In this document: positions 6,092-28,789 of the stretch, in pieces
How positions within the stretch are numbered: the stretch's first letter is position 1
Layout of the letters: each line of letters opens with the position of its first letter
Source of the DNA: a virus
IMG/VR virus record: IMGVR_UViG_3300014720_000138
Span: 1-28,789 of that record
DNA length: 28,789 nt
Direction: 5' to 3' (one strand)
Notes under the pieces: model-generated
The model's database searches: none
What the model saw: only the letters and a program-made list of their open reading frames with translations
Told to the model about the DNA's origin: nothing
Program-made: the position numbers and the translations under genes

Positions 6092-7198
6092 ATGGCAAGA
6101 GCTGAACGAGTTGCGAATCCTAAGAATGTAGTAGTAGGTGCAGAACCAATTGCAACTGAAATTGTTGCGGGTGTAGAGGGTTATGCTGTACGATTCATCA
6201 ATGCAATGAATTGGTATTCTATTGACGGCAATAAAGGTGAGGCTCGTAAGTTCTTAAGAGAGTATATTAAGAAAAACAGAACAGCTGATCTTAAAGATTT
6301 CGACAAAGTAAGTGACAAAGAGATTCGTCCTACATATGGTTGGATTGCTAGAATCATTTCTCGTGGTGCTAAGCTAAGTGATTATCATGTCGAGAATTTT
6401 AACAACTATATTTTTACCATTCTTAAATCTGTTAATGCGCCTGTAGTACAGAAAACCGTTATAATTTCTAATAGACCATCTATTCAAAATGCTATGAATG
6501 AGAAGATTTCAGAATACATTGGCACCTTGGAAGGTCACTATGACGAATACATTACTCATGGTACAGAGTTTTCGCTTGACTCTGATCTAAAAGCAAAAGA
6601 AATACCTCAAGCATATGTTACTCGAATTCAAGAGTGGGCAAAACGCCGGCTACGTGAATGGATCGAGGTATTGGAGGGCAAAGATCAACAGATCAACGAA
6701 GCATACTCTCACTATACAAAGACAAGTAAAAAGAATGTTGCCAAATTTTTTGTTTCAATGATTGAAGATTGCGAAAAATACGGCGCATTTAAAAAAGCTA
6801 ATCGTAAACCTCGCACTATTAGACAGAAAACTCCTGTGCAACAGACCAAGAATCTCAAGTATAAGATCAAAGATGAAGAACTAAATGTATCTTCGGTGAA
6901 TCCTGTAGAGATTGTTGGTGCCCAATCGATATGGTTATATAATACCAAGTCGAAAAAATTGATGCTATATCGTACAGACTCATCACAGGGTATTCAGGTA
7001 AAGGGATCTTCGTTGCAGAACTACGATCCGGAGATGTCTGAACAGAAAACTTTAAGAAAACCACTTGAACAGCTTCATGAATTGTTATCTGCTGGTAAAG
7101 TTCAGCTGAGAAAGTTCATGGAAGGCATCAAAACGAAGAAACAAGACGTCAACGGACGCATTAATAGTGAAGTTATCATTCTAAAGGCAGTAAAATGA
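6092..7198 (+). CDS. Large conserved T4-superfamily protein, unknown function
   Basis: A 368-residue protein. The N-terminal part contains a segment AVRFINAMNWYSIDGNKGEARKFL-like in character (about residues 32-56). The centre is helical and Lys/Arg-rich, with a basic linker KKANRKPRTIRQKTP at about 239-253. The C-terminal region has IWLYNTKSKKLMLYRTD. I recall homologues with this C-terminal pattern in T4-like cyanophages next to DNA metabolism genes, all annotated as hypothetical. GGAG before TAATAATG gives a good ribosome binding site. The stop overlaps the RNase H start (ATGA), hinting at a shared process such as replication or recombination. The basic linker suggests nucleic-acid binding, which is inference. 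Confidence 0.78.
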   Translation: MARAERVANPKNVVVGAEPIATEIVAGVEGYAVRFINAMNWYSIDGNKGEARKFLREYIKKNRTADLKDFDKVSDKEIRPTYGWIARIISRGAKLSDYHVENFNNYIFTILKSVNAPVVQKTVIISNRPSIQNAMNEKISEYIGTLEGHYDEYITHGTEFSLDSDLKAKEIPQAYVTRIQEWAKRRLREWIEVLEGKDQQINEAYSHYTKTSKKNVAKFFVSMIEDCEKYGAFKKANRKPRTIRQKTPVQQTKNLKYKIKDEELNVSSVNPVEIVGAQSIWLYNTKSKKLMLYRTDSSQGIQVKGSSLQNYDPEMSEQKTLRKPLEQLHELLSAGKVQLRKFMEGIKTKKQDVNGRINSEVIILKAVK

Positions 7199-8085
7199 TT
7201 GTTGTAGACTATAATCAGACCGCAATTTCTAATTTTATGGCAGAAATTGGTGGTCGAACCGATGTAGATATCAATGTTGGGCTTCTGCGCCACATGATTA
7301 TCAATTCTTTACGCGGTTACAAGCAAAAATTTGGAAAAACATACGGAGATTTGGTAATTGCATGTGATTCACGCAATTATTGGCGCCGAGATGTGTTTCC
7401 TTTGTACAAGGCAGGCAGAAAAAAGGCAAGAGAGGAGTCAGGTTTCGACTGGAAGACGATTTTCGAGACACTAAGTATGATTCGAGACGAACTTGACAAA
7501 TATTTTCCATACAAAGTGATCAATGTTGACGGTTCTGAGGCAGATGACGTTATTGCAATTTTAGCAGAGTGGTCTCAGTCCAATAATTTGATGAATTCAT
7601 CACCGTTTGATGACGGTGATCCGAAACCCTTTATGATTGTATCAGGTGATCACGACTTTATACAGTTGCAGAGGTTCAAAAATGTCAAACAGTTCTCGCC
7701 AATTCAGAAAAAACATGTCAATGTTGACACGACGCCGGAGAGATATGTATTGGAGCATACTATCAGGGGAGATAAAGGCGATGGAATCCCTAACGTACTC
7801 TCGCCCGATGACTGCCTTGTCAACGGCGAAAGACAAAAAGCAATCTCAACAAAGAAATTAGAAGAATGGATATCTGATCCTACTCGTATGCCTAATGATG
7901 ATGAGTTTGTTACTCGATTTAGACGTAATAAGATGCTTGTAGATTTTACTCAGATACCTACACGGGTCAGAGAATCAGTAATAAATAACTTTGTAACACA
8001 ACCCAACAAAGATCGTAGCAAACTTCTTAATTATTTTATTGAAAATAAAATGAAGAACATGCTAGAAGTTATTGAGGATTTTTAA
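7195..8085 (+). CDS. rnh: T4-type RNase H, FEN-1 family 5'-3' exonuclease
   Basis: At 296 residues it is close to T4 RNase H (305). The acidic metal-binding residues of the FEN family are in place: D5 in IVVDYNQ, D58 in ACDSRNYWRR followed by the FPLYKAGRK basic motif, E115/D117/D118 in GSEADDVIA, D152/D154 in SGDHDFIQL, and D193/D196 in GDKGDGIPN of the helix-hairpin-helix region. In T4 this enzyme removes RNA primers and adjacent DNA from Okazaki fragments, acting with gp32, gp45 and ligase; the ligase lies 2 kb downstream here. It overlaps its neighbours by ATGA and TAATG. The T4 order 32-59-33-dsbA-rnh is not preserved in this window. Confidence 0.93.
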   Translation: MIVVDYNQTAISNFMAEIGGRTDVDINVGLLRHMIINSLRGYKQKFGKTYGDLVIACDSRNYWRRDVFPLYKAGRKKAREESGFDWKTIFETLSMIRDELDKYFPYKVINVDGSEADDVIAILAEWSQSNNLMNSSPFDDGDPKPFMIVSGDHDFIQLQRFKNVKQFSPIQKKHVNVDTTPERYVLEHTIRGDKGDGIPNVLSPDDCLVNGERQKAISTKKLEEWISDPTRMPNDDEFVTRFRRNKMLVDFTQIPTRVRESVINNFVTQPNKDRSKLLNYFIENKMKNMLEVIEDF

Positions 8086-8564
8086 TGAAGACATCTGTCC
8101 CACAAATATTGGAGGAAGTGGAAAAACAACCTAGTAAGGAGGGTAAGATCAGAGTTCTGCGATCTTATGATGGTCCTGTACTAAGAGGTATTCTGCAACT
8201 TAATTTTAACCCAGCAATGAAAATGGATTTGCCTCCAGGTGAACCTCCTTTCAAGAAGGACACAAATATCCCCGAGGGTTATTCAGAATCTAATTTGTAT
8301 GTTGAACATAGACGTTTCTATATTTGGCTAGACCCAACTAAGAATATAAACAAGTTTAGAAAAGAATCTTTATTTATTCAAATGCTTGAAGGTATGCATT
8401 GGAAAGAATCAGAGCTAGTCTGTCTTGCTAAAGATAAAAAGATTGAAACGAAATACAAGACTGTATCACATGAATTAGTAGATGAAGCATTTCCCAATTT
8501 TCTTCCGCCAAAGGTGAAGGAAGAAAAGAAGCCAAAAAAAGCCAAAGTCCCTTTGAAAGAATAA
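8085..8564 (+). CDS. DUF6433 family protein, T4-superfamily conserved
   Basis: A 159-residue protein matching the DUF6433 pattern that I recall from T4-like phages: MKTSVPQILEEVEKQPSKEG at the start, 'LRGILQLNFNPAMKMDLPPG' near residues 35-54, RRFYIWLDP, then 'RKESLFIQMLEGMHWKESEL' near 93-112. The C-terminus is a basic Lys/Pro tail (KPKKAKVPLKE). The function is unknown; the family sits among replication genes. Its tail codons include the seven-adenine slippery site at 8534-8540. A -1 shift there would replace the last seven residues by a 55-residue extension ending at 8707. Confidence 0.88.
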   Translation: MKTSVPQILEEVEKQPSKEGKIRVLRSYDGPVLRGILQLNFNPAMKMDLPPGEPPFKKDTNIPEGYSESNLYVEHRRFYIWLDPTKNINKFRKESLFIQMLEGMHWKESELVCLAKDKKIETKYKTVSHELVDEAFPNFLPPKVKEEKKPKKAKVPLKE

Positions 8565-8593
8565 AGAATATTTTCTTTAAACCCAAGAGGGAC
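8534..8593 (+). promoter_or_regulatory. Candidate programmed -1 ribosomal frameshift signal
   Basis: In the DUF6433 frame the heptamer reads A AAA AAA (8534-8540), the X XXY YYZ class. Six bases further, GTCCCT (8547-8552) can pair with AGGGAC (8588-8593). Inside that loop AAAGAA (8563-8568) and TTCTTT (8573-8578) form a second hairpin with a TATT loop. A Shine-Dalgarno-like AAGGTGAAGG (8511-8520) lies 13 bases upstream of the heptamer. All the parts of a dnaX-type signal are present. Confidence 0.55.
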
Positions 8594-8707
8594 GAACCTG
8601 AACCTGTAGAACAGTGGTCTGTAGACCCCAGTATGCCAAAAGATCCAGTTTATGATTCAAGAACTGTGGACTTTTGGAAATACAGAGCATTTGACAAGCG
8701 TAACTAA
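8540..8707 (+). CDS. -1 frame C-terminal extension of the DUF6433 protein (55 codons)
   Basis: An open frame in the -1 register continues from the slippery site to TAA 8705-8707. It encodes a protein-like segment rich in Pro, charged and aromatic residues (NIFFKPKRDEPEPVEQW in the first half, DSRTVDFWKYRAFDKRN at the end). It has no ATG, GTG or TTG with a ribosome binding site. The only ATG, at 8633, would give 24 residues and has none. Fusion would yield a 207-residue protein instead of 159. The other explanations are an indel error in the seven-A run, which would make one continuous gene, or a decayed gene. The -35 box of the next promoter lies in its last codons. Confidence 0.5.
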   Translation, partial: SQSPFERIKNIFFKPKRDEPEPVEQWSVDPSMPKDPVYDSRTVDFWKYRAFDKRN

Positions 8708-8719
8708 TTACTATATAAT
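8691..8719 (+). promoter_or_regulatory. Consensus sigma70-type promoter
   Basis: TTGACA (8691-8696), 17-bp spacer, TATAAT (8714-8719); the predicted start is A 8726. It drives the 8745 gene and probably the DsbA gene. The -35 box overlaps the end of the -1 frame extension of the preceding gene. Confidence 0.87.
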
Positions 8720-8744: not shown

Positions 8745-9119
8745 ATGTCCTTAGTTGGTCCATGGTTAAACAATATCGGTAGTAAAAAACGCAAAGTCAA
8801 GTATGCCTCTGCCGAGGCTAAAAAACGTGACCTTGAATTGAAGGCAGAGTGGGCAAATAAGATGATTGAAATAGATAAGACAAAGAAAACTATCATGCCT
8901 AGATCATTAACAAGACCAATGCCCAAGCTCGGTCCTCCTCCTGGTCGTGAGACACGTTTTATTCCTAGTCATGATTCAGGTGCAGGTGTAGCAGCTAAAA
9001 AAGAAAATCCTGTTTATACCGGTGACAAGGTATTGGGTGTATCTATTGTACACAAATCTTGTTTGCAGCCTGTTTTTAGTGAATCACAAGCGAAAGAATT
9101 CGCATCCATGAGGAGATAA
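8745..9119 (+). CDS. Conserved phage protein, unknown function
   Basis: A 124-residue basic protein. The N-terminal half is Lys/Ala/Glu-rich and helical (KKRDLELKAEWANKMIEID). The second half has GRETRFIPSHDSGAGVAAKK, then YTGDKVLG, then HKSCLQPVFSESQAKEFASM and a terminal RR. I remember the motif series 'RxIPSxDxGxG ... YTGDKxxG ... HKSxxxPVFSxxxAxxxxxMRR' from small conserved proteins of many tailed phages, all of unknown function. AGTGAGGTGAT before the ATG is an excellent ribosome binding site and a consensus promoter precedes it, so expression should be strong. It is probably co-transcribed with dsbA four bases downstream. Confidence 0.85.
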   Translation: MSLVGPWLNNIGSKKRKVKYASAEAKKRDLELKAEWANKMIEIDKTKKTIMPRSLTRPMPKLGPPPGRETRFIPSHDSGAGVAAKKENPVYTGDKVLGVSIVHKSCLQPVFSESQAKEFASMRR

Positions 9120-9904: not shown

Positions 9905-9934
9905 AAAATAAGCAAAATTTGATTAATCCTTCGG

Positions 9935-9963
9935 TTGACACGGATATCTTTTTACTATATAAT
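9935..9963 (+). promoter_or_regulatory. Consensus sigma70-type promoter upstream of the ligase unit
   Basis: TTGACA (9935-9940), 17-bp spacer, TATAAT (9958-9963); the predicted start is A 9970. It drives the small basic protein at 9985 and, through a nine-base gap, the DNA ligase. Confidence 0.87.
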
Positions 9964-9984
9964 AATGAAATAGTGGAGATTCAC

Positions 9985-10122
9985 ATGAAAACCGAAAAAA
10001 GACGTAATCCTGTAGCAAAAGATCTTCGTACGCCGAAGTATCGTCCTCGTGTGGTTGAGGATAAGACTGCGTACAAGCGCAAACTTAAGAATGACCGCCA
10101 AGCTAACGTAATTTATTCTTGA
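9985..10122 (+). CDS. Small basic conserved phage protein (DUF7230-like)
   Basis: A 45-residue very basic protein (MKTEKRRNPVAKDLRTPKYR start, then RVVEDKTAYKRKLKND). The pattern 'R-N-P-V-A-K-x-L-R-T-P-K-(Y/F)-R-x-R-V-V-x-x-K-x-x-Y-x-R-K' is that of a widespread tiny phage family; from memory it corresponds to DUF7230, which I cannot verify here. ATG 9985 follows GTGGAG at good spacing and lies 15 bases past the predicted transcription start. An upstream in-frame start would precede the promoter start. The basic character suggests RNA or DNA contact; the function is unknown. Confidence 0.8.
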   Translation: MKTEKRRNPVAKDLRTPKYRPRVVEDKTAYKRKLKNDRQANVIYS

Positions 10123-10130
10123 TAGGTAAT

Positions 10131-11465
10131 ATGATGACTGTATTTGAAATTCTTGAAGCCCTTGCCGCAGACAATTCCCGTTTAGCTAAAGAAGCGATTC
10201 TTCGGCAACATGCTGGTAATGATGTTTTGAAAGAAACATTTCGCCTAGCATATGATCCAATGATTAGTTATTACATTCGCAAAATCCCAAATTATATTGT
10301 TGGCAAAGCTGAGGCTAAGGCAACACTGGGTTGGGCTATGCAAGAACTAGAGCAGCAATTTGCCACTCGTAACAAGACTGGTAATGCTGCAATTGACCAT
10401 TTGAAATATATTTTGGAGTCACTTGATGCACAAGATGCCAGCGTTATTGAGAGGATCATCAAACAGGACCTTCGTTGCGGAGTCGGCGAACCAACCATTA
10501 ATAAAATCTGGCCCGGACTCATTAAGACGTATCCCGTCATGCTGGCTTCTGGATTCGACCAGAAACTTATCGACAAGATCGGGTTCCCGGCCTATGTCCA
10601 ACTCAAATTGGATGGTATGCGCTTCAACGCTATCGTCCGTAGTGGCAAAGTAGAGTTTAGGAGTCGTAATGGAAGACAACTGGATATTGCGTCAGATTTA
10701 TTTGCTCAAGCATTCATTGGGTTGGCCGCTGTTTACGGCCTTGATTGTGTGTTTGACGGTGAACTTCTTGTTGTTGATTCAAGTGGTAAATCGCTTGATA
10801 GGAAAACAGGTAATGGGATTCTGACCAAAGCAATTAAAGGTACACAATCAGCTAAAGAAGCAGATATGGTTCGTGCAACCTTGTGGGATTTTATTCCTTA
10901 CGACGATTTTGTTGGGGGTAAATATACTGTACCGTATCAAACAAGATTAAGTAATTTAGTTAGAAACGTAGATAAATTCAAACGACAAAAAACTCTATCA
11001 CATCTTATTGATATTGTTCCAACCAAGGTTGTAGAAGATCAATATACTGCTAACAAGTTATTCAACAAGTATTTAGATGAAGGGCAAGAAGGTATTATTC
11101 TTAAATCTATGAATGGTATCTGGGAAGACAAACGCAGTAAAGATCAAGTTAAATTTAAAGCAGAACTTGAATGCGATCTTATGGTTGTTGGTTGGGAAGA
11201 AGGTACAGGCAAAAATAAAGGTCGCCTTGGTGCCTTAATTTGTGAATCAGCAGATGGGGCAATTCGAGTTAATGTTGGTTCTGGTTATAGTGATGAACAA
11301 CGTACAGAATTTAAGATTGACTTTGTTGTAGGAAAAGTAGCCACAGTAAAATATAATGCTCGTATTCAGGACAAAGCAGGTAATGTCGAGAGTTTATTTT
11401 TGCCAACATTTATTGAACTACGAGAAGATAAAAATCAAGCAGATAACAGCAGGAGTATCAAATGA
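10131..11465 (+). CDS. ATP-dependent DNA ligase (T4 gp30 type)
   Basis: About 444 residues (T4 ligase has 487). The nucleotidyltransferase motifs are in order: motif I VQLKLDGMRF with the adenylated Lys at about 159, motif III CVFDGELL at about 207-214, motif IV EGIILKS at about 320-326, and motif V VKFKAE around 340-345. Near the N-terminus, LRCGVGEPTINKIW is also typical of T4-type ligases. ATG 10131, with ATG 10134 as alternative, follows TAGGTA at a suitable distance. The enzyme seals nicks in replication, recombination and repair, using ATP. It shares the transcript with the tiny gene before it and overlaps the next gene by ATGA. Confidence 0.95.
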   Translation: MMTVFEILEALAADNSRLAKEAILRQHAGNDVLKETFRLAYDPMISYYIRKIPNYIVGKAEAKATLGWAMQELEQQFATRNKTGNAAIDHLKYILESLDAQDASVIERIIKQDLRCGVGEPTINKIWPGLIKTYPVMLASGFDQKLIDKIGFPAYVQLKLDGMRFNAIVRSGKVEFRSRNGRQLDIASDLFAQAFIGLAAVYGLDCVFDGELLVVDSSGKSLDRKTGNGILTKAIKGTQSAKEADMVRATLWDFIPYDDFVGGKYTVPYQTRLSNLVRNVDKFKRQKTLSHLIDIVPTKVVEDQYTANKLFNKYLDEGQEGIILKSMNGIWEDKRSKDQVKFKAELECDLMVVGWEEGTGKNKGRLGALICESADGAIRVNVGSGYSDEQRTEFKIDFVVGKVATVKYNARIQDKAGNVESLFLPTFIELREDKNQADNSRSIK

Positions 11466-15742: not shown

Positions 15743-16687
15743 ATGTCAACAATTTTAAATGCAAATTCCATTCTAGGTTTAGTAATTGTTCCTGATTCTT
15801 CAGGTGAACTGCAACTTAGAACTGCTAATGTAACTGCTCTTACTGTAGCTAATGCTAGAGTAGGTATAGGTGGCAGTGTAGATTCGAATGCTAATCTTAA
15901 GATAACAGGTAATGTAATAGTTACAGAAACAGCTAACGTGTTTTCCTTGGCTGTTTCGGGATATGGTAATGTTATAAGTAGCACTGGTGTTTGGCTTGGT
16001 CAGGGTGCTATCGGTGCACAGGGCGCACAGGGTGCTCAGGGGGTCCAAGGGTCACAGGGTGTACAAGGTGCAGTAGGTGCTCAAGGGTCACAGGGTGTAC
16101 AAGGCTCAACGGGTGATCAAGGTGTACAAGGGTCACAGGGTGCCCAAGGTGTCCAGGGCGCAACAGGTGTAGGTGTCCAAGGTGCTCAGGGTGCCCAAGG
16201 TGTGGCAGGTCCAGCTGGCAGTGGCGGTGGATCGGCAAATGTAGCAATCTACGACGAAAATGTTTTAATTACCAGTAATGTAACCGGTATAAATTTTACG
16301 GGTTCTGGTGTTACTGCTACATTATCGGGTTCTAATGTCATTGTTACCATTTCTGCTACAGGCGGCGATGGCTCAACAGCAAATGCAGATAATGTTATTC
16401 ACACCATAGACACATTTAACGGTGATGGTACCACAACATCATTTACTCTTACATCTAATGCATCACAAACAGATTCGTTGGTTATTTTAGATGGTTTGGT
16501 ACAATTTTATTCGACAGATTATAACATTAGTAATAGCACTTCCTTGGTATTTACGTCAGCTCCAGAAGTCGGTGAGACAATTAAAGTATTGCATCTACAA
16601 GGTGCAGGTGCGAGTAATGTGCCTGAAGACTGGGGCCTAGTTGATACATCAGCAACTACTACAGAAGATTACGGAAGCATAGTATGA
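15743..16687 (+). CDS. Collagen-like tail fibre protein
   Basis: A 314-residue protein. Residues 1-87 are beta-rich (attachment domain); residues 88-160 are about 24 Gly-X-Y triplets of the GAQ/GVQ/GSQ kind with one interruption (GATGVGVQG); residues 165-314 form a beta-rich C-terminal domain with a segment [20 protein letters not shown], typical of phage fibre tips. Collagen-like triplets make a trimeric shaft; the head should bind the host. The triplets hold Gln, Ala, Val and Ser, nearly no Pro or Lys. The same kind of fibre occurs at 20145. It ends in an ATGA overlap with the next fibre gene. Confidence 0.88.
16015..16215 (+). repeat. Collagen-shaft repeat of the first fibre
   Basis: Nine-base Gly-X-Y units (GGTGTACAA, GGGTCACAG and similar) run through this stretch with more variation than in the repeat at 20476-21000, so this array looks older. 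The 3' end shares CAACAGGTGTAGGTGTCCAA with the other array (near 20959-20978), marking homology. Confidence 0.8.
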
Positions 16688-20144: not shown

Positions 20145-21386
20145 ATGAGAAGAATAAAAGTCAGTAGAGTAGTAGCCAATGTTACCAGCAACAATTATCT
20201 TGCTGTTTCCGAAAATACTATCTTTGGAGTCGCTCTTAATTCCAGTAATGTTACCGAGGGATCTAATCTTTACTTTACCAACGCCAGAGCCTATGCCAAT
20301 ACATTAGTTGCAATCAAGACTGGTAATGGTATCGCTTATAGTAATATAACAGGAAATATTACATTATCAGCTACAGGAGTTTTGGCAGAAAATTATGGTA
20401 ATACTACCCATCATGTAGGATTGGTGATAGATAGTACAGGTAGAATTACTTCTGCTAATTCTATTCCTTTAGCTGCAGGTCCTCAAGGAAACCAAGGTGA
20501 CCAAGGCGCACAGGGTGTCCAGGGCGCAGTTGGTGCACAGGGCAATCAAGGTGTCCAAGGTGCAGTTGGTGCACAGGGCGCAGTTGGTGCACAGGGCAAT
20601 CAAGGTGTCCAAGGCGCAGTTGGTGCACAGGGTAATCAAGGTGTCCAAGGTGCAGTTGGTGCACAGGGCGCAGTTGGTGCACAGGGCGCAGTTGGTGCAC
20701 AGGGCGCAGTTGGTGCACAGGGCGCAGTTGGTGCACAGGGCGCATCAGGTCCTCAAGGAAACCAAGGTGTCCAAGGCGCAGTTGGTGCACAGGGCGCAGT
20801 TGGTGCACAGGGTAATCAAGGTGTCCAAGGCGCAGTTGGTGCACAGGGCGCAACAGGACCACAGGGTAATCAAGGTGTCCAGGGTGCAACAGGTCCACAG
20901 GGTAATCAAGGTGTACAAGGTGCAACAGGTGCTCAAGGGGCACAGGGCGTCCAAGGCGCAACAGGTGTAGGTGTCCAAGGCGCTCAGGGTGTACAAGGTG
21001 CTTCTGGTTCGGGTGGTGGCGGAGCCTATTCAACTAAAACTAGTAATTACACGGCAGTAGCTTTCGATAATATCATCACTAATTCTTCTGGTGGTAGTTT
21101 CACTATAACATTACCAGCAACACCAAGTTCTGGTGATTCTATTACCATAGCAGATCAAGGTTATTGGGGAGACTATCCTGTAACTGTTGATAGAAATGGC
21201 AATACAATAGAGGGTCAAAGTGACAATTTATCTTTAGATTTTAGCGGTGTCAGTGTAACGTTAATCTACAGTGGTAGTACATGGCAGGTTGTTACTTCTT
21301 TGGGTAAACAAGGTGCCCAAGGTGCTACAGGTTCTACATTTACAACAGGAAAGGCAATAGCAATGTCTATTGTGTTCGGGGGATAA
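20145..21386 (+). CDS. Long collagen-like tail fibre protein
   Basis: A 413-residue protein. Residues 1-110 are beta-rich and similar to residues 55-115 of the fibre at 16684. Residues 112-290 hold about 60 Gly-X-Y triplets, mostly GAV-GAQ, GNQ-GVQ and GPQ-GNQ, ending with the same GATGVGVQG interruption as the 15743 fibre. Residues 295-400 are a beta head domain with SGGSFTITLPATPSSGDSIT, YWGDYPVTVDRNGNTIEGQS and SGSTWQVVTS, a pattern common in phage fibre tips. The shaft is more than twice the length of the 15743 fibre shaft. The tandem DNA repeats suggest changes in repeat number. Confidence 0.88.
   Translation: MRRIKVSRVVANVTSNNYLAVSENTIFGVALNSSNVTEGSNLYFTNARAYANTLVAIKTGNGIAYSNITGNITLSATGVLAENYGNTTHHVGLVIDSTGRITSANSIPLAAGPQGNQGDQGAQGVQGAVGAQGNQGVQGAVGAQGAVGAQGNQGVQGAVGAQGNQGVQGAVGAQGAVGAQGAVGAQGAVGAQGAVGAQGASGPQGNQGVQGAVGAQGAVGAQGNQGVQGAVGAQGATGPQGNQGVQGATGPQGNQGVQGATGAQGAQGVQGATGVGVQGAQGVQGASGSGGGGAYSTKTSNYTAVAFDNIITNSSGGSFTITLPATPSSGDSITIADQGYWGDYPVTVDRNGNTIEGQSDNLSLDFSGVSVTLIYSGSTWQVVTSLGKQGAQGATGSTFTTGKAIAMSIVFGG
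20476..21000 (+). repeat. Tandem 9-bp-based repeat encoding the collagen shaft
   Basis: Nine-base units (Gly-X-Y) run through the region. GCAGTTGGTGCACAG occurs 12 times between 20525 and 20850; five of these (20650-20733) follow each other every 18 bp with no change. This near-identity at DNA level, beyond what the protein requires, means recent duplication and scope for slippage or recombination. Confidence 0.9.
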
Positions 21387-21387
21387 T

Positions 21388-21744
21388 ATGGCAAGTCCTA
21401 ATATAGTTGGGGTGGTTAATATCACAGGAAATACAATAGTATCTAATGTAACTACTATATTTTCTAACGTAATTACTAATACTTCTACAAGTAATTCTAT
21501 TATAAAAATTAATAACTTGATTGTATCCAATTACTCCAATGCCTCCATTACTTCCACAGTTCAATTAAATAGAAGTGCTGCTAATTATTATTTTGCCGGA
21601 GCTATAACAATACCAGCAAATTCTACACTTGTAGTTATAGGTAAAGATACAGGTGTTTATCTTTTAGAAGGCGATGTTATTCAAGCTAATGTATCTGCTA
21701 ATGTATCAGCTTCTTTAATTGCGTCATTTGAAACCATAAGTTAA
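21388..21744 (+). CDS. Small beta-rich protein of adhesin cassette 1
   Basis: A 118-residue Ser/Thr/Asn/Val-rich beta protein (MASPNIVGVVNITGNTIVSN start). The segment VITNTSTSNSIIKINNLIVS and the SYDG/SNYSN-like motif are shared with the protein at 27308 (NTSTSNTIVKVNSLFLSNYD), and the same size class occurs at 23773. Each of the three precedes a glycine-rich adhesin gene by a TAATG overlap, so I take them as adaptors or co-proteins of those adhesins. GGGGGAT before the ATG is the ribosome binding site. No family name is known to me. Confidence 0.75.
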   Translation: MASPNIVGVVNITGNTIVSNVTTIFSNVITNTSTSNSIIKINNLIVSNYSNASITSTVQLNRSAANYYFAGAITIPANSTLVVIGKDTGVYLLEGDVIQANVSANVSASLIASFETIS

Positions 21745-23480
21745 TGAGACATAGATCTAATAAAGGAATTATAGGGCCCCAACAGCTGGTAACTTCCAGT
21801 AGTGCTGGAGGGATACATTCTATTTTAGATCATTTTTTAAACAAAGGTGCCGGAACTTGGCCTATTTACGGTGGCTACACCATCGTCCAAACCTTTACCG
21901 CTACGTCTACTTGGACTTGCCCTGCTGGTGTTACAGAGGTTGATTATTTGGTTGTGGCTGGTGGGGGTGGGGGTGGCTCTCGCCATGGAGGTGGCGGGGG
22001 AGCGGGGGGGATGAGATACGGTACTGGATTGGCGGTTAGCGCTGGGACTGACTACACAATCACCGTAGGTGGCGGCGGCGCAGGAAATACAAACACAGGT
22101 AGCGCCGGTGGTGGGGTAACAGGCGGCGATTCAATCTTCCTCTCTGTTACATCAAAAGGTGGCGGTGGTGGGGGTGGTGTTTCAGGATCTAGCCCCGGTC
22201 TCCCTGGTGGTTCTGGTGGTGGCGCTGGGTACAGTGGCCCTGGTGGATCTGCAATTGCAATAACTCCTGTTCCAGGGGAAATTTCAACTACACAAGGTAA
22301 TAATGGGGCAACTCTTGGCGCTGACACATTAGATGCGTCTGGTGGCGGCGGCGCTGGTAGTGCAGGATCGGCTAGACCGTCCTCTGGAATTGGTGGCAGT
22401 GGTGGAAACGGTTTAATAGGCCCATCATTCGCTTCATCTTATGGTGGAGCCGGTCCTGGTGGGTCACCTTCTACTGGGTATTACGCTGGCGGTGGAGGGG
22501 GCGGCGTATTTAACGTACCCAACAATGGCGGTCCTGGTGGCATAGGTGGCGGTGGAAAAGGTGCTGCTAATGTTACTGCTGGGTCAGCAGGTACAAACAC
22601 ATCCGGTGGCGGCGGGGGCGGTGGCAGTGGTGCTGCTGGTGGTTATAACGGCGGCTCCGGCATTGTTATCCTCAAGTACACCGTAGCAAGTCAAACCGTA
22701 TTTACGTTCAAAGGCACTACCACTTGGAAATGCCCCGCAGGTGTAACCAGCGTGGATTATCTTGTGGTTGGTGGGGGCGGCGGCAGTGGAAGCCCCGTCG
22801 ATGGAACAAACCAAAATCCAACAGGAGGCGGTGGTGCAGGTGGCTTCCGCACCGGAACCGCATTGAGCGTTACTGGTGGAACAGAGTACGCTATCACTGT
22901 TGGAGCGGGGGGTACTGCTGGAACAACAGGAAATTCCGGTAATGCGGGTTCTAATTCGGTGTTTAGCATCATTACATCTACGGGCGGTGGCGGGGGTGAA
23001 GGTGGCGTTTCAGGCGCTGGTAATGGCGGTTCTGGTGGCGGTGGTAGCGGATCAGTAAACTCTGGAGGCACTAGACCGGGAGGGAGCGGTAACACTCCAT
23101 CAGTAAGCCCCTCGCAGGGGAGTAATGGCGGCACCGGTATCGGCGCTGGAAACCCAGGAACTGCAACAGATAGAGGGGGTGGTGGTGGCGGTGGCGCTTC
23201 TGCTGTTGGTGCTAATGGAGCTTTAGGCATCGGAGGAAATGGCGGAGCTGGTACTTCGTCTAGCATTTCTGGTTCTCCCGTTACTTATGCTGGCGGAGGT
23301 GGCGGGGCAGGTGGAACTGCAGGTACCGGTGGCGCTGGAGGTGGTGCAACAGCAGGTGCGTCTTCAACTCCTTCAGCAGGAACTGTTAACACAGGCGGTG
23401 GTGGTGGTGGCTGTCGTGCCACGCCGGGAACAGGCTCTGCAGGCGGTTCCGGTATCGTCATCATAAAAATAAATCAATAA
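21744..23480 (+). CDS. Glycine-rich adhesin 1, two repeated domains
   Basis: A 578-residue protein. A unique 45-residue start is followed by two domains. Each opens 'xTFTATSTWTCPAGVT-x-VDYLVVAGGGGGG', runs through polyglycine segments, and closes 'GGSGIVI(L/I)K'. The second begins QTVFTFKGTTTWKCPAGVTS. This is the glycine-rich domain of phage adhesins; in T4-like gp38-type adhesins such segments stack as polyglycine-II sandwiches with variable loops at the tip for receptor binding (inference by analogy). It is translated by TAATG coupling with the small protein before it. Highly G-rich coding strand. Confidence 0.88.
   Translation: MRHRSNKGIIGPQQLVTSSSAGGIHSILDHFLNKGAGTWPIYGGYTIVQTFTATSTWTCPAGVTEVDYLVVAGGGGGGSRHGGGGGAGGMRYGTGLAVSAGTDYTITVGGGGAGNTNTGSAGGGVTGGDSIFLSVTSKGGGGGGGVSGSSPGLPGGSGGGAGYSGPGGSAIAITPVPGEISTTQGNNGATLGADTLDASGGGGAGSAGSARPSSGIGGSGGNGLIGPSFASSYGGAGPGGSPSTGYYAGGGGGGVFNVPNNGGPGGIGGGGKGAANVTAGSAGTNTSGGGGGGGSGAAGGYNGGSGIVILKYTVASQTVFTFKGTTTWKCPAGVTSVDYLVVGGGGGSGSPVDGTNQNPTGGGGAGGFRTGTALSVTGGTEYAITVGAGGTAGTTGNSGNAGSNSVFSIITSTGGGGGEGGVSGAGNGGSGGGGSGSVNSGGTRPGGSGNTPSVSPSQGSNGGTGIGAGNPGTATDRGGGGGGGASAVGANGALGIGGNGGAGTSSSISGSPVTYAGGGGGAGGTAGTGGAGGGATAGASSTPSAGTVNTGGGGGGCRATPGTGSAGGSGIVIIKINQ
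22698..22752 (+). repeat. Domain-seam repeat, copy 1
   Basis: A 55-bp stretch encoding the start of the second glycine-rich domain. It matches copies at 25014-25068 and 28699-28753 at 53 of 55 bases, while the flanking glycine-rich DNA differs. This suits recombination between adhesin genes at conserved seams. Confidence 0.85.
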
Positions 23481-23772: not shown

Positions 23773-24111
23773 ATGACAACGGTCTATAAAGTTTTAGCTC
23801 AGTCTATTCCAACACAGAATACGTTAACTACTGTGTACAGCGTACCAAATGGAAATACCGCAGTTATTTCTACATTATCTGTTTGCAATCAATCTAATGT
23901 TAATAATGCTTCGTACAGAATAGCTATTCAAAAGAATAATGCAGCAATTTCGTCTAACGCATATATTGTTTTCGATGCATCAGTAGCAACTTTAGATACA
24001 GCATTTTTGACATTGGGTATTACAATGGGTAGTAATGATGTCCTGAGTGCAAATATTACATCAGGAAATTCTAACGTATCTATTAATGTATTTGGGTCGG
24101 AGATTTTTTAA
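23773..24111 (+). CDS. Small beta-rich protein of adhesin cassette 2
   Basis: A 112-residue beta-rich protein (MTTVYKVLAQSIPTQNTLTT start) with 'SVPNGNTAVISTLSVCNQSN', 'NASYRIAIQKN' and 'ISSNAYIVFD'. The layout of strands with short Asn/Ser turns matches the 118- and 119-residue proteins at 21388 and 27308, and it precedes a glycine-rich adhesin by a TAATG overlap exactly as they do. The sequence has diverged more than the other two. AAGGA is the ribosome binding site. Confidence 0.75.
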   Translation: MTTVYKVLAQSIPTQNTLTTVYSVPNGNTAVISTLSVCNQSNVNNASYRIAIQKNNAAISSNAYIVFDASVATLDTAFLTLGITMGSNDVLSANITSGNSNVSINVFGSEIF

Positions 24112-25760
24112 TGGCTCTGGCATTTGCCTCTTCTATTAATAAAAGAAGAACTATTTCACAGGTATTCAAAAGATTTATTTCTGGTTATTCTATAGTCCAA
24201 ACCTTTACTGCTACGTCTACTTGGACATGCCCTACTGGTGTTACTAGTGTTGAGTATTTGGTTGTGGCTGGTGGTGGTAGCGGAGGAAGAAACAATAACG
24301 GTGCTGGTGGGGGGGCTGGCGGGTATAGAACTGGAACTGGATTAAGTGTGGCCGCAGGAAATGATTACACCATTACCGTTGGTGGCGGTGGTGCAGCTTT
24401 AACTGGTGCTGGGGCCGGTAATAATGGAAGTGATTCTTATATCCAATCAACAGCCTCTCCTCATATAACTGCAAATCCTTCTGCTCCAGGAAATCCATAC
24501 GCAAATGCTTTTGTAGCATTTGGCGGCGGTGGTGGGGGTGGTACAGGTAGCTTAGGTGGCAAGAATGGTGGTTGTGGTGGTGGTGGGGCTGGTAGCGGAT
24601 CACCTGCTCCTGGTGGAACAGGAAATACGCCATCAACTTCACCAAGTCAAGGTAATAATGGTGGTGCTGGACTAGATGGCACTGGTGCTGGTGGTGGTGG
24701 TGGGGCTGGTGGGAATGGTACTGCTGGTGGTAATCCAGGTGGTGGTGGCGGTGTCGGTATACAAGGCCCATCTTTTGCGTCATCGTATGGTGGCTCTGGG
24801 CCTGGAGGATCTCCTTCAACAGGTTATTTTTCTGGTGGCGGCGCAGGTAATGGCCCTGCTGGTAACACAGCAGGTTATGGTGGCGGTGGAGCCACAAGCA
24901 CTAATGGAACCACTAATAGCGGTGGAGGCGGGGGCGGGTGGAATGGGTCTGGTAATTCAGGAGCAGGCGGCTCCGGCATTGTTATTCTCAAGTACACCGT
25001 AGCAACTCAAACCGTATTTACGTTCAAAGGCACTACCACTTGGACTTGCCCCGCAGGTGTAACCAGCGTTGACTATCTTGTAGTGGCTGGTGGCGGTGGT
25101 GGTGGAACTGGAGGCGGTCGTGGAGGTGGTGGCGGTGCTGGTGGTTATAGAACTGGCACAGCATTATCTGTAACAGCCGGCACTGATTACACCGTAACTG
25201 TTGGTGGTGGTGGTAATGGTGGAAATGTCGGCAGTAATTCGGTATTTAGCACCATTACATCCGCTGGTGGAGGTAACGGCGGAGGCGGCCCTTCATCACA
25301 AACCGGTGCAAACGGAGGTTCTGGAGGCGGTGGAGGTGCATTGGGTTCGCAACCAGCTAGCACTGGCGGGTCTGGAAACACTCCTTCCACGAGTCCTTCG
25401 CAAGGATCAAACGGTGGCGGCGGTACTGGATCGCCATCTTTTTATACTGGTGGCGGAGGCGGTGCTGGTGGTGTTGGTGGAACTGGCGCAGCTCCATCAT
25501 CTGGAAACGGCGGTAACGGCACTGCTTCAAGTATTAGCGGTTCGTCTGTAACTTATGCCGGTGGTGGCGGTGGTTCTATGGATCCATCAGGTGCAGGCAC
25601 AGGTGGTACAGGTGGTGGCGGTAATGGTGATAATGGATCAAGTAATACAGGATTAACGGCAGGCACAACTAACACAGGCGGTGGGGGTGGAGGTTCAATT
25701 GCTCCTGGAACGGGAGCAAATGGCGGCTCCGGTATCGTAATCATAAAAATAAATCAATAA
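24111..25760 (+). CDS. Glycine-rich adhesin 2, two repeated domains
   Basis: A 549-residue protein. The N-terminus (MALAFASSINKRRTISQVFK) differs from adhesin 1; then come two glycine-rich domains with the same openings (TFTATSTWTCPTGVTSVEYL and TVFTFKGTTTWTCPAGVTSV), polyglycine bodies and the same end (GIVIIKINQ). The bodies differ strongly from adhesin 1 in the loops, as expected for receptor-binding variation. The 3' end shares ATCATAAAAATAAATCAATAA-like sequence with adhesin 1, so the two genes are recent duplicates or exchange DNA. Confidence 0.88.
   Translation: MALAFASSINKRRTISQVFKRFISGYSIVQTFTATSTWTCPTGVTSVEYLVVAGGGSGGRNNNGAGGGAGGYRTGTGLSVAAGNDYTITVGGGGAALTGAGAGNNGSDSYIQSTASPHITANPSAPGNPYANAFVAFGGGGGGGTGSLGGKNGGCGGGGAGSGSPAPGGTGNTPSTSPSQGNNGGAGLDGTGAGGGGGAGGNGTAGGNPGGGGGVGIQGPSFASSYGGSGPGGSPSTGYFSGGGAGNGPAGNTAGYGGGGATSTNGTTNSGGGGGGWNGSGNSGAGGSGIVILKYTVATQTVFTFKGTTTWTCPAGVTSVDYLVVAGGGGGGTGGGRGGGGGAGGYRTGTALSVTAGTDYTVTVGGGGNGGNVGSNSVFSTITSAGGGNGGGGPSSQTGANGGSGGGGGALGSQPASTGGSGNTPSTSPSQGSNGGGGTGSPSFYTGGGGGAGGVGGTGAAPSSGNGGNGTASSISGSSVTYAGGGGGSMDPSGAGTGGTGGGGNGDNGSSNTGLTAGTTNTGGGGGGSIAPGTGANGGSGIVIIKINQ
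25014..25068 (+). repeat. Domain-seam repeat, copy 2
   Basis: The 55-bp seam starting GTATTTACGTTCAAAGG, identical in all bases to copy 3 at 28699-28753. It marks the start of domain 2 of the second glycine-rich adhesin. Confidence 0.85.
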
Positions 25761-27307: not shown

Positions 27308-27667
27308 ATGGCCAATCCTAATTTAGCAAACGTATCTGCCGGATATGGTAAAATGGCATTTCAAAATGTCGCCAATACTTTTGCAAACATTGTAGTTAAT
27401 ACATCTACAAGTAATACTATAGTGAAAGTAAATAGTTTATTCTTATCAAATTATGATGGAACCAATGTAGCTAATGTTACAGTAAATATTTCTAATGCTG
27501 GTATTAGTTATAGTGTTTTGACCAATGTTTCTATTCCTTTACAGAGTTCTTTAATTGCTATAGACAAAGAAAGTTCTATCTATATGGAGGAAGGGCAATT
27601 TATGCAATTAAAAGCACATGCCAATAATCATGTCCAAGCTGTTTTAAGTTACGATATTATAAGTTAA
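27308..27667 (+). CDS. Small beta-rich protein of adhesin cassette 3
   Basis: A 119-residue beta-rich protein (MANPNLANVSAGYGKMAFQN start). Motifs VVNTSTSNTIVKVNSLFLSN and later SLIAIDKESSIYMEEGQFMQ align with those of the 21388 protein (INNLIVS, LVVIGKDTGVYLLEGDVIQ). Its stop overlaps the ATG of adhesin 3 (TAATG). It is the third copy of the cassette. Confidence 0.75.
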   Translation: MANPNLANVSAGYGKMAFQNVANTFANIVVNTSTSNTIVKVNSLFLSNYDGTNVANVTVNISNAGISYSVLTNVSIPLQSSLIAIDKESSIYMEEGQFMQLKAHANNHVQAVLSYDIIS

Positions 27668-28789
27668 TGAGATCTAACGGTGGAATAGTAGGGGTAGTAA
27701 ACAATCCTGCCTTATCCTTTTCCAGTGGTTTATGGACACTGGGTGACAAGTTTATAGCTACAAAACTTGGTACTTGGCCTCTTTACGGTGGCTTCAGCAT
27801 CGTCCAAACCTTTACAGCAACAAGCACTTGGACATGCCCTACTGGTGTTACAGAGGTTGAGTATTTGGTTGTGGCTGGTGGAGGTGGTGGTGGTTGCAGA
27901 CGTGGAGCCGGAGGCGGTGCAGGAGGATTCAGAACGGGTACTGGTTTAACTGTTACACCAAACCAAGATTACACTATTACAGTCGGTGCAGCGGGAACAG
28001 CAGGTTTAAATTCTGGTAGTACAGTAGCAGGAAATGGTGGTAATAGTTATATTTCTGGGCCTGGGATTACTAACAATCCTTCATCTGGAAACCCGTACAC
28101 CAATGCACTAGTGGCTTATGGTGGAGGTGGTGGAGGTGGTGACGGCCCCAGTATTAGTAACGGCGCAAGCGGAGGATCAGGAGGCGGTGCTGCTGGCTAT
28201 AGCGGAGCAACGGCTGGTTCTGGAAATACACCAAATACAACGGATGCACCGTATGGTGGGCCATCTTCTCAAGGCAATAACGGTGGCTCATCTTCATCGT
28301 CTGGCCCGAATATTGGGTCTGGAGGCGGCGGCGGCGCTGGTGGAAGCGGAGGTTCTGGAACTTCAACTTCTGGCGGTGCTGGTGGCAATGGAATTCAAGG
28401 CCCGTCTTTTGCATCTAGTTATGGAAGTTCTGGCCCAGGAGGATCACCTGCTAAAGGATATTTTTCCGGCGGTGGTGGCGGTGGAACGTATAACGGGCCT
28501 AATCTAGGTGGCGCTGGTGGTTATGGCGGCGGCGGCAATTCTGGTAGTTATTCTGGATTGGGTAACGGAGTAGCTGGCGTAACAAATTCTGGTGGTGGTG
28601 GGGGTGCTGGGTCAAACGGCGACCCTGGATTAAATTACGATGGAGCAGCAGGCGGCTCCGGTATTGTTATCCTGAAGTATTTCGTACCATCACAAACTGT
28701 ATTTACGTTCAAAGGCACTACCACTTGGACTTGCCCCGCAGGTGTAACCAGCGCTGACTATCTTGTGGTTGCTGGTGGGGGTGGGGGTG
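27667..28789 (+). CDS. Glycine-rich adhesin 3 (3' partial)
   Basis: An open frame of at least 374 codons running off the right edge. A unique start (MRSNGGIVGVVNNPALSFSS) is followed by the first glycine-rich domain, opening VQTFTATSTWTCPTGVTEVE, closing GGSGIVILKYFV, and then the opening of the second domain (QTVFTFKGTTTWTCPAGVTS). The structure is that of adhesins 1 and 2. The window ends in the first polyglycine segment of domain 2, so about 200 more codons are expected. Confidence 0.88.
   Translation, partial: MRSNGGIVGVVNNPALSFSSGLWTLGDKFIATKLGTWPLYGGFSIVQTFTATSTWTCPTGVTEVEYLVVAGGGGGGCRRGAGGGAGGFRTGTGLTVTPNQDYTITVGAAGTAGLNSGSTVAGNGGNSYISGPGITNNPSSGNPYTNALVAYGGGGGGGDGPSISNGASGGSGGGAAGYSGATAGSGNTPNTTDAPYGGPSSQGNNGGSSSSSGPNIGSGGGGGAGGSGGSGTSTSGGAGGNGIQGPSFASSYGSSGPGGSPAKGYFSGGGGGGTYNGPNLGGAGGYGGGGNSGSYSGLGNGVAGVTNSGGGGGAGSNGDPGLNYDGAAGGSGIVILKYFVPSQTVFTFKGTTTWTCPAGVTSADYLVVAGGGGG
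28699..28753 (+). repeat. Domain-seam repeat, copy 3
   Basis: The same seam, 55 of 55 bases identical to copy 2, lying 36 bases before the window edge, in the third adhesin. Confidence 0.85.

Follow-up and report, generated by a model that had tools for sequence, protein, structure and literature searches.

Programmed frameshifting in the tailed phages has so far been found mostly in tail-assembly and capsid genes. Frameshifting at the heptamer A_AAA_AAG is well known in dnaX and in insertion sequences (PMC5009743, PMC4066793, PMC3711429), and it is also known in phage tail-assembly genes (PMC5009743, PMC10885494), where the G-T frameshift is conserved among the long-tailed phages except T4 (reviewed in PMC5009743). 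The gene described here lies in a 28,789-nucleotide stretch of viral DNA from IMG/VR (the whole of which we call the window), encodes a protein of family DUF6433, and very probably gives rise to two products through programmed −1 ribosomal frameshifting of the dnaX type. It resembles E. coli dnaX (tau/gamma) in the heptamer itself, which is A_AAA_AAG in 39 of its homologues (PMC5009743, PMC3711429), in a downstream stem, in an upstream Shine-Dalgarno sequence in a share of the homologues, in the common N-terminus of the two predicted products, and in probably being a gene of DNA metabolism. It differs in that frameshifting would lengthen the DUF6433 protein whereas it shortens the dnaX protein, in that the two proteins are unrelated, and in that the DUF6433 stimulators vary by lineage. 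Like the lambda tail assembly chaperone pair G/GT, it is a phage gene in which a −1 frameshift near the 3' end would add a C-terminal extension, and the arrangement is conserved over large divergence (PMC5009743), but the gene, the slip sites and the place in the genome are different, since DUF6433 lies beside rnh and outside the tail genes. The kind of mechanism is known and the gene family is apparently new for it: a search of the open-access literature (subscription papers fell outside its scope) found no report of frameshifting in DUF6433 or in a comparable T4-like phage gene, as the preliminary description of this locus had also supposed, and no literature on DUF6433.

According to the mechanism we propose, most ribosomes would read the DUF6433 frame to the TAA at 8562 and make the 159-amino acid protein, while a fraction would move one base back on A_AAA_AAA (8534–8540), aided by the stem 6 nt farther on and possibly by the upstream element AAGGTGAAGG, and would continue in the −1 frame to 8707, giving a 207-amino acid form (152 + 55 residues) that ends in a conserved tail. 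We infer both the slippage itself and a useful rate for it. Gene callers annotate the short form alone and so miss the tail. The features of the locus are collected in Table 1.

Table 1. Features of the DUF6433 locus in the window (positions are those of the window)
Feature	Position	Strand	Remarks
T4-type RNase H gene (rnh)	7195–8085	+	Upstream neighbour of DUF6433
DUF6433 gene, 0-frame short form, 159 aa	8085–8564	+	Pfam PF20025, E=2e-27; phrog_461
Internal Shine-Dalgarno-like element AAGGTGAAGG	8511–8520	+	13 nt before slip site; partly conserved
Slippery heptamer A_AAA_AAA	8534–8540	+	In gene phase
−1 frame tail, 55 residues + stop	8540–8707	+	Conserved in 90 homologues
Candidate stimulatory stem	8547–8593	+	8547–8554 GTCCCTTT with 8586–8593 AGAGGGAC
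Second in-frame heptamer C_CCT_TTG	8549–8555	+	Within 5' arm of stem
0-frame stop TAA	8562–8564	+	28 nt from first base of heptamer
Perfect sigma70-type promoter TTGACA-17-TATAAT	8691–8719	+	−35 box in F-D-K codons of tail
phrog_27048 gene	8745–9119	+	Downstream neighbour; dsbA next

The window's DUF6433 protein scores 95.8 bits, well above the PF20025 gathering score of 38.9. Re-reading the sequence gave the same slippery site in the phase of the gene (CCA AAA AAA GCC), the same open −1 frame and the same length of the fused product as the preliminary description. The −1 open reading frame spans 8486–8707 (its stop is the TAA at 8705–8707) and has no ATG, GTG or TTG before 8633; it had been described as having no start of its own with a ribosome binding site. 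Three features go beyond that description: the second heptamer C_CCT_TTG, a consensus promoter where the tail ends, and the resemblance of the predicted DUF6433 fold to a ligase domain. Elsewhere in the window, collagen-like GAQGAQG repeat proteins are encoded at 15743–16687 and 20145–21386, and their repeats cause long spurious open reading frames in other frames. Three related glycine-rich proteins (21744–23480, 24111–25760 and 27667–28788) have in common a block SIVQTFTATSTWTCP...EYLVVAGGGG and are probably paralogues that serve as adhesins or tail proteins.

Protein and alignment searches of IMG/VR found well over a hundred DUF6433 loci of this type. The tail-bearing homologues analyzed below are a distinct set of 90, from which identical sequences were removed (59 clusters at 90% identity), and every one of them is metagenomic. 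In the tree they form a single supported clade (98/93), outside which lie the tail-less DUF6433 proteins of cyanophages, Melnitz-1, marine viruses and phiM12. Cyanophage T4-GC 313 (phrog_461) belongs to the same DUF6433 family and occupies the same place after rnh, but the DUF6433 genes examined in cyanophages, as well as those in Melnitz-1 and phiM12, have neither the tail nor the slip site. The tail lies in the −1 frame relative to DUF6433 in all 90 homologues, and none of them carries the unbroken fused frame that would have spoken against a recoding signal. An A heptamer is present within the overlap of the two frames in 77 of the 90 (A_AAA_AAG in 39 and A_AAA_AAA in 38), and in 68 of these 77 its first base is exactly 28 nt from the 0-frame stop. 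In-frame A_AAA_AAR is found at 83 places in the 1698 codons of the overlaps, whereas the other 12,947 codons of these genes contain it only twice, and A_AAA_AAA and A_AAA_AAG have been interchanged repeatedly across the tree.

The remaining 13 homologues have no A heptamer; seven have C_CCT_TTG, one (L082) has G_GGA_AAC, and five have overlapping stop and start codons, which are discussed below. C_CCT_TTG is the sole heptamer in L043, L128–L130 and L132–L134, which belong to a clade that is sister to that of the window, and L131 of the same clade carries both C_CCT_TTG and A_AAA_AAG. The window also has both an A heptamer and C_CCT_TTG, and we take A_AAA_AAA to be its probable working site, because the stem begins 6 nt downstream of it whereas C_CCT_TTG falls within the 5' arm of the stem. 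The preliminary description had named a length error in the seven-A run as the main alternative. Homopolymers are indeed prone to be given the wrong length, but the seven-A run is found in other assemblies as well, the six-A version (A_AAA_AAG) is found in 39 homologues, and the break recurs, with differing heptamers, in all 90 distinct sequences, which come from many assemblies; short of an error shared by all of these assemblies, the comparison excludes a wrong length of the A run. A tail that is the decayed, functionless end of a gene would be expected neither to be under purifying selection in its own frame nor to retain invariant residues (see below), and we give error and decay together a practically negligible probability. 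The seven-A run could also be thought of as a site of RNA polymerase slippage, A runs being known sites of this kind (PMC3711429), so that mRNAs with altered numbers of A would be read into the tail. This explanation is extremely unlikely given the 39 homologues with just six A's followed by G and the seven with C_CCT_TTG, which has no such run, all of which keep the tail; moreover, a stem and a Shine-Dalgarno sequence stimulate ribosomal and not transcriptional slippage. Ribosomal −1 frameshifting, on the other hand, explains why the heptamers are in codon phase, why one can stand in for another, why they are almost absent from the rest of the gene, and why stems and Shine-Dalgarno elements accompany them.

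The preliminary description thought the −1 frame peptide protein-like, and its sequence is in fact conserved in all 90 homologues. The alignment of the tails gives the motif FFERI...W...P.DP.YDSR....YRAFDK, in which the W, D-x-R and F-D are invariant and Y-R-A and the K nearly so; the FFERI-type helix is close to the start. Downstream of the 0-frame stop the median dN/dS (Nei-Gojobori) is 0.59 in the −1 frame and 1.04 and 1.37 in the other two frames, and when the last nine codons are left out the values are 0.63, 1.13 and 1.64, respectively; the pairs compared share ancestry and are not independent, so that these values indicate a direction and not a probability. By this measure the tail is under purifying selection, and in the −1 frame only. 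Comparison of the homologues thus shows that selection has preserved both the putative signal and the tail throughout a clade of T4-like viruses. A tblastn search of cultured phages with two tails as queries gave no significant match, neither the comparison of the tail with PHROGs nor that of the tail profile with PDB sequences gave a meaningful one, and a search for relatives in bacterial and archaeal genomes found no DUF6433 of this type. The five large contigs tested have no psbA-type reaction-centre genes, which makes cyanobacterial hosts appear less likely and so speaks against them.

The tail could instead be a separate small gene, translated by termination and reinitiation at or near the DUF6433 stop codon with no frameshift. 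Just such an arrangement appears to be present in the five homologues in which the ATG of the tail overlaps the stop within a TAATG or TGATG (L031, L032, L206, L207 and L209); no slippery heptamer is present there, and the tail has its own start, so slippage is not needed. In addition, the next gene of the cyanophages (T4-GC 314) begins in the same −1 frame across the stop. In the −1 frame of the window, however, no ATG, GTG or TTG is found close to the stop, and 48 of the 90 homologues lack one over the whole stretch between the opening of that frame and the position 30 nt beyond the stop; in the others the possible starts are at lineage-specific places and have no clear Shine-Dalgarno sequence. 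Nor does reinitiation explain why the heptamers are retained, why they hardly occur in the rest of the gene and how the stems are spaced. It fits the five stop-start homologues only, and as the explanation for the clade we consider it very unlikely and programmed frameshifting much the better one. Since these five encode the tail as a separate open reading frame, the fused form must be dispensable in some lineages. An A_AAG tetramer at the stop in the same five (GTA AAG TRA) could slip. The cyanophage arrangement was seen in S-PM2 (L124) and in L017, L019, L020 and L125 (cyanophages and a marine single-cell virus), where the gene after DUF6433 (T4-GC 314, phrog_485) starts in the −1 frame near the stop; the start is within a TGATG in L017, L019 and L124. 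We considered whether the tail might be a relative of T4-GC 314 and rejected the idea, as the two have no profile similarity even though both are in the −1 frame.

The outer stem is where the preliminary description placed it (8547/8593, beginning 6 nt after the heptamer), but it is 8 bp and not 6 bp long; the inner hairpin that it was said to enclose is there and has 7 bp. The segment 8541–8600 is predicted to fold at −16.9 kcal/mol, which corresponds to z = −4.3 relative to dinucleotide shuffles, and an equally good fold arises in 0.4% of 2000 coding-aware controls, in which synonymous −1 codons alone were resampled, after the 0-frame stop. When stems were ranked against all in-phase positions within the same locus in 50 homologues, the best helix beginning 4–9 nt past the heptamer came within the top 5% of positions in 44 of them and within the top 1% in 39. 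The 5' arm is fixed and the distance to its 3' partner depends on the lineage, with spans of about 33–35, 38–40, 47–49 and 63–68 nt. There is no covariation within the stem classes, whose cores are invariant and hence uninformative; both arms also encode protein, so the pairs do not covary. Matches to Rfam are not above chance. An outstanding stem is missing in six of the 50, among them L014 and L015, which have AAGGAGG upstream of the slip site instead.

The upstream Shine-Dalgarno-like element is present in the window as described, 13 nt before the slip site and with a pairing energy of −7.9 kcal/mol, yet it is the least conserved part of the signal. An energy of −6 kcal/mol or lower is reached in 24 of 77 homologues versus 8% of control positions, and in the C_CCT_TTG clade a strong Shine-Dalgarno sequence, with energies between −8.7 and −13.2 kcal/mol, lies a few bases before the heptamer. 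It is possible, judging from these comparisons, that AAGGTGAAGG acts as a frameshift stimulator. The statement that all parts of a dnaX-type signal are in place holds, with the strength of stem and Shine-Dalgarno differing among lineages.

All 55 homologues examined have a strong sigma70-type promoter overlapping or adjoining the tail's end, mostly with its −35 box in the F-D-K codons. It lies farther downstream in L033, L049, L101, L115, L117 and L120, in which the [YF]RAFD[KR] end is nevertheless kept; the protein and the promoter therefore constrain this DNA separately. The phrog_27048 gene is presumably expressed from this promoter; its start (VGPWL) can be recognized at the corresponding position in relatives including L007, L010, L015 and L016. 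A second perfect TTGACA-17-TATAAT promoter is found at 9935–9963, within a short open reading frame (9919–10122) that closely precedes the DNA ligase gene. Consensus promoters embedded in this way may be the early promoters of the virus.

The short form and the tail were modelled separately. The AlphaFold (AF2) model of the short form (pLDDT 87.7) has its best PDB matches in 6dt1 and 5wfy (Z 14.7 and 14.5, respectively), and the leading matches are all DNA ligases; the alignments to ligase DNA-binding domains cover 128–132 residues with Z 14.4–14.7, rmsd 2.9–3.2 and about 10% identity, although the model is all-helical and for such folds a Z of about 13–14 can reflect a common arrangement. The predicted fold is thus like that of the DNA-binding domains of T4 DNA ligase (5wfy, 6dt1), Pmar-Lig (6ras) and further ATP-dependent DNA ligases, but DUF6433 stands alone, without their catalytic and OB domains. 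An hhalign comparison of DUF6433 with the window's own ligase aligns 46 residues (E 6e-4, with a probability of just 29%), and in several cyanophage records the feature under the DUF6433 match is named "DNA ligase". The virus also encodes a full-length DNA ligase (10119–11465). A ligase-like helical fold alone does not establish function, and we infer a role for DUF6433 in DNA replication or repair. The tail model has low confidence and a single short helix (residues 13–21), as expected for a docking segment rather than a domain.

We can offer these ideas on function less firmly than the frameshift itself. DUF6433 might be related to the DNA-binding domain of DNA ligases and act, as a free-standing protein, beside RNase H, and the mostly unstructured tail, with its short amphipathic helix, invariant W, D-x-R and F-D and near-invariant YRA, might dock a partner, which we would guess to be one in DNA replication or repair; frameshifting would then set the ratio of the short and long forms. 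A ligase-like DUF6433 with a docking tail is, on these models, a tentative proposal. More doubtful still is the full scheme in which a free-standing ligase-type domain is under dnaX-style ratio control, its tail serves to dock the sliding clamp or another partner in the replisome, and the switch has been swapped among slippery sites and reinitiation. The idea of the clamp comes from a loose likeness only, between RI-hydrophobic-x-F in the tail and the polymerase C-terminus TLEGLFG in related viruses. We discarded the possibility that the tail or DUF6433 is T4 gp33 (PF16805), as a separate gp33 is encoded elsewhere in all six large tail-bearing contigs, and clamp binding by analogy with gp33 was of no help, since the gp33 of these phages ends in KKRGKLPL.

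The DUF6433 gene would thus be a widely conserved case of frameshifting beside rnh and dsbA, in T4-like viruses that are known here from metagenomes alone, and the protein family gains a second product, a predicted fold and a testable hypothesis. The natural series within this clade, A_AAA_AAA, A_AAA_AAG, C_CCT_TTG with a Shine-Dalgarno sequence, G_GGA_AAC, and overlapping stop and start codons, could reveal how one recoding site comes to replace another over evolutionary time.
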